Part shown: piece by piece, positions 15,051-21,969 of the stretch
How positions within the stretch are numbered: the stretch's first letter is position 1
How the letters are laid out: each line of letters starts with the position of its first letter
Virus record (IMG/VR): IMGVR_UViG_3300023219_000049
Coordinates: 1 to 21,969 of that record
Source: a virus
DNA: 21,969 nt
Direction: 5' to 3' (one strand)
The notes under the pieces: model-generated
Databases searched by the model: none
What the model was told of the DNA's origin: nothing
The model's input: only the letters and a program-made list of their open reading frames with translations
Translations under genes and position numbers: made by a program

Positions 15051-15249
15051 CGTTTAAATTTTCATGGTTCAGTATGCACAGTATTGCTTTTTTATTTACA
15101 GAATTTAGAGGTTTGTCACTATTAAACATTCTTCTAATTGTAGAGATATTAACCCCTAAAGCTTTCGCTAAAGGGGTTTTATAGTTTTCTCCATATTTAT
15201 TTATTAGTTTAGAGATGATCTGTTCTTTCGTGTTCTTGGATAAAATCAA
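15043..15249 (-). CDS. Small helix-turn-helix protein
   Basis: I prefer the TTG at 15249, with GGAGG 6 bases upstream, giving 68 aa; an ATG at 15270 would give 75 aa without a visible Shine-Dalgarno. The product contains 'KTPLAKALGVNISTIRRMFNSDKPLN', a clear helix-turn-helix of Cro/XRE-like type. A final helix, 'NKKAILCILNHEN', follows. It overlaps the end of rsr by about 40 bases and the start of ninG by 8 bases, so it is in the rsr-ninG transcript. It could be a small regulator of this operon or of lysis/late functions. Target sites cannot be assigned. Confidence 0.6.
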   Translation of the reverse strand: MILSKNTKEQIISKLINKYGENYKTPLAKALGVNISTIRRMFNSDKPLNSVNKKAILCILNHENLNDG

Positions 15250-16504
15250 CGCACGCCTCCGAAAAACCATCTATATGTGTCCATGCGTGATAGCCGACAC
15301 CGTTACGGTTAGAGGCTACATTAATCATATAACCAACGCCTCTAGGGTCTGGCACCACATCATGTGATTGCTCATCAGTGATCACAATTAATCTATCATA
15401 TTTCATATTGCCATCAATGCATCTTACGGCACCCCCTAAATAAGTCCTTCCATGAGGTTGAGAATTATGTATGGCGTCTGCTAATGCCATGCCTTTACGG
15501 GGTGCTACCTCCGCAATATTATTAGAGAATGTAAATACCCGAAGGTCTTCACAAATACCACTCAGTAAAATAGCTAAACCGTTAGCCACATCAATGCGAT
15601 TTAAATCTGATTTGCTAGATAATTTCCAGTCCATAGAGCCAGATACATCAACCAATAAAACTGTTTTTCCTGCTAATTGATCCATATCATCCAGCATTTT
15701 TAACATCGCTGAATCGAGTTCACGTTCAAATAAAGGCGCATATTTCGCAGCAGAAATAAAACGAAAAGGCAAGACAGATGCTGAAGGTTTTAATATTGCT
15801 TCTTTAATTAGATTATGATCAACACCAGCTTCATTCATGCCGCGAAGATTTCGGAGCAATGCCATATAACCTAACTTGTTTGTTTTTAATAGGTTTTCAA
15901 AGACGGATTTTTTATCTTCACCAGCGGCCATTCTTGACTCCCAAGTATTAGGAGTTGCTAGTTCATTATTAGATAATCGCTTGAATAAATCTTCTTTATC
16001 TTTAGTTGGTTTAGCATGAGTTAAAAACATAACATCACGTAATTTAATATCCCCAGGTCGATTCCATTTAGCTAATTGGTATTCGTTGAATTTTAAAAAG
16101 GCCTTCCCTAATCCGATCTTCATTTGTTTGGACAAAGGCCGCTTACCTTCCATCCAGTATAATGCAACCAGTTCAGTTATTTCATCAGGTCGATTGATAG
16201 TGTCTTCAATGGCTTGAGCTACCTTGTTGCCGCCTTTCTTTATTAGAACTAACAGTATTAACAATGGTGCGTGACGCAACTTAAAAACTGTTCTAGCTTC
16301 GACAGCTAACGAACAAAGTGTTTCAACATTGCATTGATCGGCAAGACGCATAATTCTAGCTGTAACATCTTCACCTGATTCATAAAATGACTTTTCCCAT
16401 AACAGACACGACATTAAGGTTCTACGTAACTGATTTTCAATTGAGATGTTTTTGGCTGGTGCGCTTTCGTGAGTTTTTAGATGGGTTTGAATGTTAATTC
16501 TCAT
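15209..16504 (-). CDS. rsr: Ro60-family RNA-binding protein (Rsr): TROVE plus vWA domains
   Basis: This 431-aa protein is a bacterial-type Ro60 orthologue. Residues about 20-270 are the TROVE HEAT-like repeat ring, including the signature 'KLRDVMFLTHAKP' (154-166) and 'GYMALLRNLRGMNEAGV' (212-228). Residues 280-431 form a von Willebrand A domain. Its metal-ion site is complete: DVSGS (286-290), Thr354 (GRTYLGG) and Asp377 (VITDEQS). Ro proteins hold misfolded RNA ends in the ring and Y RNAs on its outer face; with a Y RNA they can tether PNPase. The protein is shorter than typical Ro60 (about 530 aa). Two Y RNA-like genes lie immediately upstream on the same strand, strongly supporting the call. 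AGGAA precedes the ATG. I see no RtcB/RtcA genes nearby. Confidence 0.9.
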   Translation of the reverse strand: MRINIQTHLKTHESAPAKNISIENQLRRTLMSCLLWEKSFYESGEDVTARIMRLADQCNVETLCSLAVEARTVFKLRHAPLLILLVLIKKGGNKVAQAIEDTINRPDEITELVALYWMEGKRPLSKQMKIGLGKAFLKFNEYQLAKWNRPGDIKLRDVMFLTHAKPTKDKEDLFKRLSNNELATPNTWESRMAAGEDKKSVFENLLKTNKLGYMALLRNLRGMNEAGVDHNLIKEAILKPSASVLPFRFISAAKYAPLFERELDSAMLKMLDDMDQLAGKTVLLVDVSGSMDWKLSSKSDLNRIDVANGLAILLSGICEDLRVFTFSNNIAEVAPRKGMALADAIHNSQPHGRTYLGGAVRCIDGNMKYDRLIVITDEQSHDVVPDPRGVGYMINVASNRNGVGYHAWTHIDGFSEACVDFIQEHERTDHL

Positions 16505-18622: not shown

Positions 18623-18648
18623 ATGATTAACCTCTATTAATAATGTAG

Positions 18649-18668
18649 TATTACTTGGTGTTACTAGG
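18649..18668 (-). promoter_or_regulatory. Tandem 10-bp operator-like repeats
   Basis: Given on the plus strand, TATTACTTGG (18649-18658) and TGTTACTAGG (18659-18668) are directly adjacent and agree at 8 of 10 positions. They lie over the predicted start of the leftward transcript. Direct repeats at one-turn spacing are typical of ribbon-helix-helix repressor sites, and the first gene downstream encodes such a domain. Autoregulation is inferred. Confidence 0.45.
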
Positions 18669-18670
18669 TA

Positions 18671-18697
18671 AGTATAGTCAATTAATCATATAGTCAA
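18671..18697 (-). promoter_or_regulatory. Leftward promoter of the replication/rsr block
   Basis: On the minus strand, TTGACT (18692-18697) and TATACT (18671-18676) form a sigma70-like pair with a short 15-base spacer. The octamer TTGACTAT occurs twice here, once at each hexamer. The predicted start at about 18664 lies in the tandem operator-like repeats, and the next gene starts at 18622. Confidence 0.5.
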
Positions 18698-18757
18698 GGA
18701 TTATTTGTTTACTCCTTGTTTAATTGAATAGTGAATTTATTGCTAGCCATTAATTCA

Positions 18758-18832
18758 TTAACGATACATATCTACCATATCAGCCATTACAGTTAGCGTT
18801 TTATCTTCTAGCTCTACAGTGAATTTAATCAT
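18758..18832 (-). CDS. Possible 24-aa peptide
   Basis: ATG at 18832 is preceded by AGAGGAATGAT, and the frame ends at TAA 18758. The peptide, MIKFTVELEDKTLTVMADMV.., has an amphipathic strand-then-helix pattern. It sits 15 bases after the stop of the cysteine-rich mini-gene. Only the Shine-Dalgarno and sensible composition support it. Confidence 0.35.
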   Translation of the reverse strand: MIKFTVELEDKTLTVMADMVDMYR

Positions 18833-18846
18833 ATCATTCCTCTTGT

Positions 18847-18981
18847 CTATTCTTCCCAGCCGCCTTCACAATCACAGCCTTCAACATCACAGTGGCCCCA
18901 ACCATGTTCTTCAGGATCATGATCGCAAGTACAGTCACAAAAATATATTGGTTGCTCGCAGTCTTCCCATTCATCGTCCAT
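18847..18981 (-). CDS. 44-aa acidic, cysteine-rich miniprotein
   Basis: ATG at 18981 has AAGGA 8 bases upstream, and the frame ends at TAG 18847. The peptide holds seven cysteines (FCDCTCD, HCDVEGCDCEGG), three histidines and many Asp/Glu with hardly any basic residue. It should bind metal (zinc or similar) and is strongly acidic. It lies between two hypothetical genes on the same strand. Composition and ribosome binding site make it likely to be real. A DNA-mimic or metal-binding antagonist role can only be guessed. Confidence 0.6.
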   Translation of the reverse strand: MDDEWEDCEQPIYFCDCTCDHDPEEHGWGHCDVEGCDCEGGWEE

Positions 18982-19015
18982 TATGTGTTCCTTAGTTAAT
19001 GTTTATTAGTAAGTA

Positions 19016-19615
19016 TTAATCTTTGTAAAAGGTATCTAATACGTCTTCAAATATATCTTTAGGATTAACTATATCCGATTGGAACCCATCCTCGCCTGGC
19101 AAACGCATTTCTTTATCAGGCAGTTGAATCTGTAACCACTCCTTGTTGGGGCACATATCTCGGTTAAATGCAAAGTGCTGATATAAATCTTCGCCAACTA
19201 CACGACGTACTTTAATTCTAAAGTCATCATGGAAGTGAAACTTATCTCCGCTTATTACTATATTCTCGATTATTTCTATATCTTCGAGGTAGTCGGCTAC
19301 TCCATTAATAATATGTCCTAATCCTGGATCAGCAACTACAGACAAAATTACGAAGTCTGGGCGATTATCTCTAGCTAGACCGAATGTATAGAAACCAAGT
19401 TTATTTACACAAATTATCTGAAATCGACCACCGTTTTCTAGATCATGTTTTTGTTGTTCTTTAATCAGCCCCGAGCGATAGGGAACAAGACAGTCCTGAC
19501 AATAATACTTGCCTTCACTGGAATGAGCTTTATCTCCTGGCTGTATATGCGGACAAAGATTAGATGCTTCTGTTAATGGTACGATCACATCTCTTTTAAT
19601 TTCTGGTAATGTCAT
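19016..19615 (-). CDS. Hypothetical protein with N-terminal metal site (199 aa)
   Basis: The N-terminal part has a possible zinc ribbon: Cys21 and His23 (LCPHI), then Cys39 and Cys42 (YYCQDC). The remainder is a mixed alpha/beta domain ('GGRFQIICVNKLGFYTFGLARD', 'DFVILSVVADPGLGHIINGVADYLEDIEIIENIVISGDKFHFHDD'). It continues to an acidic C-terminus. AAGGAATAAAATA precedes the ATG. It follows the 131-aa gene by 4 bases and both have near-identical leader motifs. I do not recognise the family; no nuclease or methylase motif is visible. Confidence 0.52.
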   Translation of the reverse strand: MTLPEIKRDVIVPLTEASNLCPHIQPGDKAHSSEGKYYCQDCLVPYRSGLIKEQQKHDLENGGRFQIICVNKLGFYTFGLARDNRPDFVILSVVADPGLGHIINGVADYLEDIEIIENIVISGDKFHFHDDFRIKVRRVVGEDLYQHFAFNRDMCPNKEWLQIQLPDKEMRLPGEDGFQSDIVNPKDIFEDVLDTFYKD

Positions 19616-20059: not shown

Positions 20060-20401
20060 CTATTTACGTAACCACTTCACTTCTATGTCACGGTGTCGTT
20101 TCATTTGCTTATTAGTCATTCTTAAGGCATGTTTTTCCAAGTAGCATAAACACAAGTCAATCTCTGATATAACATTTTGCTTTGCTTTCTTTTTCTTTCC
20201 TTTACTAATTGGAGTATTGTTACTCTCGAATGCTTCCGCTTGCTGCCCTGTGATTACTTCACCTATGATTGAGTTTTTCCATCCGTGCTGTGGAGGCCAG
20301 GTTAAACCAAGTGCTATTATCTGGGCTCTGGTCCAAGCACCTCTCTTAGTTTTGAATTCGTTTATGTACTCGTTTGTTACTAATACTGCCTCTGTTCTCA
20401 T
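20060..20401 (-). CDS. Hypothetical phage protein with 'GAWT..WPP..GW' motif (113 aa)
   Basis: The product carries 'YINEFKTKRGAWTRAQIIALGLTWPPQHGWKNSIIGEVIT', a compact motif seen in many phage proteins of unknown function. A Lys-rich linker (SKGKKKKAKQ) and a basic C-terminal helix follow. Positive charge suggests nucleic-acid contact. Its first 8 codons and upstream region belong to a 96-bp sequence repeated at the end of the window, where the frame after MRTEAVLV diverges and stops soon. I assign no function. Confidence 0.55.
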   Translation of the reverse strand: MRTEAVLVTNEYINEFKTKRGAWTRAQIIALGLTWPPQHGWKNSIIGEVITGQQAEAFESNNTPISKGKKKKAKQNVISEIDLCLCYLEKHALRMTNKQMKRHRDIEVKWLRK

Positions 20402-20474
20402 GATTGAATCGCCTTATTTATAATTAGTTCAGAAACGTATACTTTATCTTGGGTATAGCAAGCCATACAAAGAC
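20379..20474. repeat. 96-bp direct repeat, copy A
   Basis: This stretch is identical to 21874-21969, offset 1495 bases. It covers the first 23 bases of the 113-aa gene and its upstream region, up to the left edge of the structured RNA region. The identity ends on the left at 20378 and on the right only because the window ends. Confidence 0.95.
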
Positions 20475-21386
20475 AGGGTAAAAAACACCCAAAATCTATT
20501 GTAAGGCTACACTAAAACTAGTCCGGGAAACTGTAGGGACTTTAGAGCTTTAGGCCGTGGTCTTTCTCCACGATTGACAACTTTTTACATCTCTGCATTA
20601 AATGAGCTTGTCACGAATAACCGAAGTAACAACCGAGGAGTACTAGTCCAACATGAATCTTGGTTAAACGCTGCCACACACTCCGGTTTTTTAACAAATA
20701 CCCAGTACCGGATTAGACATATAACCCCTGAGTCAGGATTTCGAGTTATAAGGCTGGGAGGGGGAACTTGAGGCATTAAAAAAGGCTTTGGTAGTAACTG
20801 GTGGTTTAGGTAAGTGACATTACCCCAGCTACTAACAAAACCTTCTAAACTGTCTTTTGGAAACCACACCAATCAACAAATTAACTATAGCATGGATTTG
20901 GAATTAACCAAAAACCTGTATATAAGAATGAGCTAGCTGGATGACCTTTCCCAAGGTTAGAAGCCGTACTTTCAACGGATTAAAGGATTATGTCCAACAA
21001 CTATTTTCTACTAACTCACTCATATATAAAGGCTTTAACCATTTAAAAGCGTTGTATTTAATGTGCTAGCAACTTGAGGTTTTCACCATTGATGAAGCTC
21101 AACTACTTGTTAGGTTTTTCACTAAGCTTTAACAGGACTTGAACCCAAGAGCACCCTAAACACTCTCCACCTCATCAGAAATCAACTCAACGTCACACCC
21201 GTCGGCTTTACCGTCTAATATCTCTCTGATTCAGTTGCTACCACATTAAACACAACGCTTTAACTACTTGAAAGAATTTGTGTCTGCCCTAATCTATTCT
21301 GCAAAACCCCACTAGGGTAGAGTCTGTGAGAATCAACCTAATTAAAGATTGCCGTTTGCATTATTAACCAGACACAAAAAAGGATA
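20475..21386 (-). ncRNA. Large structured noncoding RNA candidate (GOLLD/ROOL-like giant RNA)
   Basis: About 910 bases hold no credible gene but many strong stems. The largest joins 21046-21074 to 21233-21261 (29 positions, 27 Watson-Crick pairs). Others join 20915-20932 to 21015-21032 (15 of 18 pairs) and 21277-21286 to 21369-21378 (10 of 10). Smaller ones include TATAAC/GTTATA, CCGTGG/CCACG and GCTGGG/CCCAGC. The minus strand is favoured: a mismatch in each of the two largest stems becomes G-U there, and two hairpins gain GNRA tetraloops (GGT-GAAA-ACC; ACCTT-GGGA-AAGGT). A T-loop-like GGGTTCAAGTCC is also on that strand. Size and phage context recall GOLLD or ROOL RNAs. I cannot assign the family, and the ends are approximate. 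Confidence 0.68.
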
Positions 21387-21698
21387 TCATAAAAAATCAG
21401 GTTCTTGATGGAAAACTTCAACATCCGATTTGATTTTTTGCTTAGATTTTACCTGTAAATCAACGTCAAGATAATCACCAAATTCCCATATCATGTTCTT
21501 TAAAGCTATCGGTTGATGCATTATGTCTGGTCTTACTCCTTTAATTAAAATATTCCATGCTGCACCTTTGGTCATATATCTATTCACTGTGCTAACTTCT
21601 CTCCAGTTAACGATTTCAGACTTTGCGTTATCGAACATTGTTGATAATTGTTCAAAGGTTATTGTTTCAGCTATTTTCTTTGCGGTTGTTTTGTTCAT
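21387..21698 (-). CDS. Hypothetical protein (103 aa)
   Basis: The product is a small, mostly helical protein: 'TAKKIAETITFEQLSTMFDNAKSEIVNWREVSTVNRYMTKGAAWNILIKG', then 'IALKNMIWEFGDYLDVDLQ'. It ends in a charged tail. GGAGAAATAAG precedes the ATG. It follows the truncated gene upstream by one base and ends next to the large structured RNA. No motif is recognised. Being directly next to the RNA, it is a candidate partner or merely a neighbour. Confidence 0.52.
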   Translation of the reverse strand: MNKTTAKKIAETITFEQLSTMFDNAKSEIVNWREVSTVNRYMTKGAAWNILIKGVRPDIMHQPIALKNMIWEFGDYLDVDLQVKSKQKIKSDVEVFHQEPDFL

Positions 21699-21873: not shown

Positions 21874-21969
21874 ACTAATACTGCCTCTGTTCTCATGATT
21901 GAATCGCCTTATTTATAATTAGTTCAGAAACGTATACTTTATCTTGGGTATAGCAAGCCATACAAAGAC
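21874..21969. repeat. 96-bp direct repeat, copy B, at the window end
   Basis: Identical over 96 bases to 20379-20474. It contains the first codons of the 113-aa gene (MRTEAVLV), here followed by an unrelated stretch that stops after about 10 codons. It abuts the cut-off end of the truncated gene. The repeat may continue past the window. Confidence 0.95.

Follow-up and report, generated by a model that had tools for sequence, protein, structure and literature searches.

Positions 20475-21386 of the window, the 21,969-nt stretch of viral DNA analysed here, contain only short ORFs, the longest being 65 aa on the plus strand and 95 aa on the minus strand; a Pfam search with the latter returned zero matches. 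The preliminary description had seen no credible gene in this region, with which these ORFs agree, and had proposed a giant, ornate noncoding RNA on the minus strand. That strand has a folding energy of -265.2 kcal/mol (z -6.93, with none of 20 shuffles as low), compared with a z of -1.48 for the plus strand, which supports that placement. The long-range stem 21046-21074/21233-21261 is exactly as first described, its 29 positions comprising 27 Watson-Crick pairs, one G-U pair and one mismatch. Its score of 59.5, the best in the region, exceeds that of every stem in 60 dinucleotide shuffles (maximum 41), and the second-best stem reaches 42, against 29 in the same shuffles. Further long stems are formed by 21010-21036/20911-20937 and 20825-20846/20780-20801. 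The smaller elements named at the outset were also recovered: a perfect 10-bp closing stem UUUGUGUCUG/CAGACACAAA (21369-21378/21277-21286), a T-loop motif GGGUUCAAGUCC and, by eye from the sequence, a GNRA-type hairpin CCUU[GGGA]AAGG at 20945-20956. Structure on this scale is beyond chance, as had been claimed, and together with the homologues described below it makes a real structured RNA family almost certain.

Two other features of the window deserve mention. A TROVE/vWA Ro60-like protein is encoded at 15209-16504 on the minus strand and has ~50% identical relatives in Brevundimonas, Caulobacter and Xanthomonas phages. Positions 20379-20474 and 21874-21969 form a perfect 96-base direct repeat, with which the contig end re-enters its own sequence; beyond it may lie a second RNA copy or a tandem duplication, or the repeat may be an assembly loop.

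The window DNA gave no match to GenBank phages, and a 113-aa ORF tried as a route to relatives yielded none. Homologues were gathered by DNA pattern scans, covariance models and BLAST. In record L091, a relative of the 103-aa ORF that borders the region is followed by ~1.2 kb of noncoding DNA matching parts of the window, in which a HEARO RNA (L091:10477-10705, 105.8 bits), a separate element, is flanked on either side by a copy of a tRNA-like frame, GAGUGAGUUAG...CUAGCUCAUUC. Pattern scans gave the relatives L094, G001, L111, L114, L123 and L126; matches in L109, L110, L112, L113, L115-L122, L124, L125, L127-L130, L133 and L134 had none of the remaining conserved parts and were discarded as chance hits. 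Scanning contigs of bacterial genomes led to phage-like contigs binned with Colwellia and Psychromonas, and BLAST with the RNAs so gathered led to named Vibrio and Pseudoalteromonas phages, where the RNA occupies an unannotated gap of ~550-650 bases or carries a tRNA annotation only. In all, 20 copies of a conserved core were found in 17 records, including seven named Vibrio or Pseudoalteromonas phages; Vibrio phages NF, Seahorse, 1.054.O, 1.275.O and BT-1011 are among the carriers. Vibrio phage NF, the Colwellia contig and record G049 have two copies per genome. The second copies (L138:7280-7413, L142:16964-17069 and L158, that of phage NF) lie ~8-15 kb away and are clearly of a different subtype.

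The tRNA-frame pattern had zero matches in bacterial genomes, and the L114 RNA had no match in plasmids. Among 299 Colwellia-family, 24 Psychromonas-family and 395 Psychromonas-order genomes, only the seed genome was matched, so the RNA looks phage-borne and not like a host gene. The core is missing from most of the window phage's P22-coat relatives. Record L093, which gave no core match, has a phage-contig tRNA cluster at 18637-19418 with unusually long insertions, possibly introns.

A first covariance model (R1) was built from nine aligned copies of the 5′ part and a second (R2) from 18 copies, the window being excluded from both. R1 finds the window at 20872-20777 on the minus strand with 28.3 bits and R2 finds it with 36.2 bits; the E-values, rough because calibrations were short, are 3.6e-5 and 1.4e-6, respectively. 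R1 also recovers the second copies in the Colwellia contig, G049 and phage NF, plus one copy in each of six other named phages. Across the 18 copies, 97.3% of cells are paired and 23 of 29 core pairs have changed on both sides, in an alignment that, being fitted to the model, is biased towards the structure; slid-partner controls gave 39-58% paired and 2-10 pairs with changes on both sides. In an unfitted MAFFT alignment, 11 of 30 pairs already had double changes. The long stem of the core is followed by at least six U's in nearly every copy. An extended -10 site with a score of 9.5 or more out of 10.5 against TGnTATAAT stands 5-7 nt before the 5′ hairpin in 7 of 12 copies, and the corresponding site of the window, TGCTATAGT, lies 11 nt before its hairpin. 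The position of this site likely fixes the 5′ end of the RNA. The 3′ end, where G001 has a terminator-like hairpin, is placed with less certainty.

The conserved core is the 20778-20872 stem and not the 29-position stem, of which no exact homologue was found among the relatives. A single RNA of ~900 nt was set aside, as the homologues put a promoter-like site and 5′ hairpin at 20857-20911. The minus strand of 20475-21386 is real structured RNA, probably comprising two units (Table 1); what survives of the giant RNA first proposed is a large structured minus-strand noncoding RNA, and what probably does not is the single molecule, which the promoter-like site splits.

Table 1 Features of the two RNA units and the adjoining ORF in the window
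Feature	Position	Strand	Remarks
103-aa ORF	21387..21698	-	A conserved neighbour (82% identity in L091) immediately before unit A; outside the RNA
Unit A slot-1 hairpin domain	21277..21378	-	Closed by UUUGUGUCUG/CAGACACAAA; 86% identical to L094 over 127 nt
Linker CUUUCAAGUAGUUAAAGC	21257..21274	-	Identical in G001, L094, L111 and L123
Unit A module C	21046..21261	-	29-position stem enclosing the T-loop motif
T-arm-like segment UUGGGUUCAAGUCCUG	21119..21148	-	Inside module C
Unit A module D	20911..21036	-	Slot-2 tRNA-like frame GAGUGAGUUAG ... CUAGCUCAUUC; same frame in 7 other records
Promoter-like site TTGGTT-16-TATAGT, extended -10 TGcTATAGT	~20884..20911	-	91% identity over 55 nt with the site that precedes the L091 RNA
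Unit B 5′ hairpin UUGG...CCAA	20857..20872	-	In relatives GUGG/CCAC, GCGG/CCGU, GCAG/CUGC
Unit B conserved core D2	20778..20872	-	Hairpin and long stem ending UUUUUU
Candidate pseudoknot helix GUUUAG (20845-20850)/CUAAAC (20804-20809)	20804..20850	-	p 0.09 in the window
Unit B 3′ domain	20476..20777	-	First ~20 nt resemble L142b and L091; remainder divergent
5-bp hairpin with U-rich tail	20476-20490	-	3′ end of the unit B domain

Unit A (21378-20911) begins with a slot-1 hairpin a few bases past the stop codon of the preceding ORF. It lacks both promoter and core, and its transcript would also include that ORF. Modules C and D have the frame end CUAGCnCAUU in common, which makes module C a probable duplicated slot-2 module, paralogous to D. 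By sequence, unit A is probably a promoterless partial copy of the family with two tRNA-like modules. Unit B (20872 to ~20476) and the second RNA of G049 (L142b) share 75% identity across 132 nt; in unit B, the 3′ domain gave no significant match beyond its start and slot 1 is empty. Unit B is probably a complete, divergent copy with its own promoter-like site. The window, L091 and G001 have downstream genes in common.

Slot 1, which follows the U tract immediately, is occupied by intact tRNAs in L114 (Trp), L132 (Gly) and phage Seahorse (Trp-Arg-Gly), by an intact tRNA Tyr plus a second tRNA-like segment in L126, and by a tRNA-like element, annotated tRNA-Und, in phage 242E40-1. A tRNA within the RNA was thus seen in L114, L126, L132 and Seahorse, and the window has tRNA-like modules only. 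Elsewhere slot 1 is filled by a hairpin with a covarying closing stem as long as that of a tRNA (GUGUCUG/CAGACAC, GUAUCUG/CAGAUAC or GUGUCCG/CGGGCAC). The 3′ domains of 242E40-1 and 1.054.O are 98.9% identical and their slot-1 contents differ, which points to exchange of slot 1. Slot 2, present in some copies, is a constant tRNA-like frame with a variable interior; the T-loop motif occurs in six of the eight interiors outside the window, and also in module C of the window. In L123 (6310-6424), slot 2 contains a tRNA-like element that carries, close to the anticodon region, a long insertion and scores 33.6 bits with the Rfam tRNA model.

In most copies, the loop of the long stem is paired with the segment that separates this stem from the 5′ hairpin, forming a pseudoknot whose sequences turn over almost completely (GAAAUUAGUUGA/UCAACUGAUUUC, GUAAAUUGGUAA/UUGCCGAUUUAC, AAUGUUUGAUAA/UUAUCAGACGUU, UGGUAAAGAUA/UAUCUUUACCA). 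The helix reaches p ≤ 0.01 in 8 of 12 copies. Over nine copies, pairing averages 11.1 of 12 within a copy and 6.2 between copies (permutation p 5e-5). The 6-bp helix of the window is weak taken alone. In some copies the same segment can pair alternatively with a second downstream segment, significantly so in a minority; L126 offers both UUGAUAAAGG/CCUUUAUCAA and AAUGUUUGAUAA/UUAUCAGACGUU. One segment with two possible partners suggests a switch.

The family appears new and outside those in Rfam, a possibility raised at the outset, to which the homologues and the covariation in the neighbouring core now add. With the gathering score as threshold, zero Rfam families matched the window; relaxing it to E ≤ 10 brought up just Methylophilales-1 and U8, both far under cut-off. 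Covariance models of GOLLD, ROOL, OLE and HEARO, the searches originally proposed, gave no match in the window at gathering score or at E ≤ 10, and GOLLD and ROOL gave none in relative L145 at E ≤ 10. ARAGORN detected no tRNA or tmRNA in the window, and Rfam likewise detected no tmRNA. Methylophilales-1 (RF03011) aligns over its full length with the slot-1 domain and resembles that domain only, with 23.2 bits at window 21277-21378 and 27.8 bits at L094:539-639 against a cut-off of 79.9; as these two copies are 86% identical, the matches are not independent. Methylophilales-1 RNA might, for its part, belong to some larger phage RNA. The open-access literature searched, with subscription journals outside its scope, yielded no prior account of the new family.

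On balance, we read the region as a mosaic member of a new family: large structured noncoding RNAs, carried by marine gammaproteobacterial phages, that may act in trans as tRNA carriers. The sequences show the order extended -10 site (in most copies), covarying hairpin, pseudoknotted long stem, U tract, slot 1, linker, in some copies slot 2, and a 3′ domain of ~300 nt; the RNA would be made during infection. That tRNAs recur within a large, folded RNA of phages that has a promoter of its own makes a trans role like that of GOLLD and ROOL, as a folded RNA bearing tRNAs or their mimics, our leading guess; by this analogy the RNA may be a trans-acting, tRNA-carrying scaffold, a proposal we make tentatively. 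More speculatively, the RNA could be a modular platform with a constant frame, two exchangeable tRNA-shaped slots, cargo swapped by recombination and a 5′ switch of pseudoknot and U tract; the cargo might be an intact tRNA, a pseudo-tRNA, a hairpin or even a neighbouring HEARO element.

Against a trans-acting carrier count, in the window, the weak pseudoknot, the empty slot 1 of unit B and its 3′ domain unmatched beyond the start, and, in the family, the U tract after the core stem, which is terminator-like and suits a role in cis. Together with the alternative pairing and the position before genes, it makes a cis-acting attenuator the main rival, though a somewhat unlikely one: an attenuator or RNA antiterminator at the heads of phage operons, in the spirit of HK022 put, in which hairpin, pseudoknot and U-tract stem would toggle between termination, leaving an RNA of ~125 nt, and read-through into the tRNA and downstream genes. 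The promoter directly upstream and the genes close behind the RNA fit such a device, as do the near-universal long stem and U tract, the two copies per genome in three cases, and the pre-stem segment, which in several copies has two possible pairing partners downstream. However, the second pairing is significant in a minority of copies only, the downstream genes vary among phages, and the conserved parts run 300-500 nt beyond the U tract in an RNA that far exceeds the known put and attenuator elements in size; the insertion of tRNAs and slot 2 are also left unexplained.

Degenerate slot-1 and slot-2 modules might instead serve as tRNA-mimic decoys that divert host tRNA-cutting defence enzymes or tRNA-binding proteins. 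Slot-2 interiors that differ greatly between phages within a constant frame, most of them with a T-loop, and slot-1 inserts swapped between close relatives would suit a decoy, but intact tRNAs with normal anticodons also occupy slot 1, and we consider this improbable. Bacterial Y RNAs contain tRNA-like modules, and the Ro60-like (TROVE) protein of the window (Pfam E 2e-12) could in principle have the RNA as a Y RNA-like partner. Yet no Rfam Y RNA family matched, and the 13 other RNA-bearing records, seven named phages included, gave no Ro60 match in a search run without a positive control and on several fragments. With Ro60 found in the window record only, a Ro60-binding role is unlikely for the family, and we rate this explanation as very improbable. 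A degraded protein gene or chance structure, to which the short ORFs might point, is practically out of the question given the covariation, the homologous unannotated intergenic regions in many phages and the failure of the 95-aa ORF to match Pfam.

Only a few families of large structured phage RNAs have been described, and what GOLLD and ROOL do is not yet settled. The family would represent a novel type of RNA machine, or of RNA switch, in phages. Its presence in cultured Vibrio phages makes expression, structure and role directly testable, and turns the reason why phages embed tRNAs in large RNAs into a testable question.

As a large, ornate, tRNA-associated phage RNA, the family is of a kind already known. 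The put RNAs of HK022 are promoter-proximal phage RNA structures that act as antiterminators; they are ~65 nt long, with two hairpins and no tRNA. The new RNA is likewise a promoter-proximal phage RNA structure, but it is far larger and can include tRNAs. GOLLD and ROOL occur in phages near tRNA islands; GOLLD has a structured 3′ region and a variable 5′/linker part, with linkers that can hold tRNAs, and ROOL, a phage and prophage RNA, has several pseudoknots (PMC12286853). The new family shares with ROOL a tie to tRNAs and, in most relatives, a pseudoknot, although its tRNAs lie inside the RNA, whereas those of ROOL lie beside it. Like GOLLD, it is large, ornate and phage-borne, and tRNAs can lie within it; GOLLD forms an RNA-only multimeric cage. 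The new family is marked by a core consisting of a 5′ pseudoknotted stem with a U tract and by a length of about 450-700 nt.
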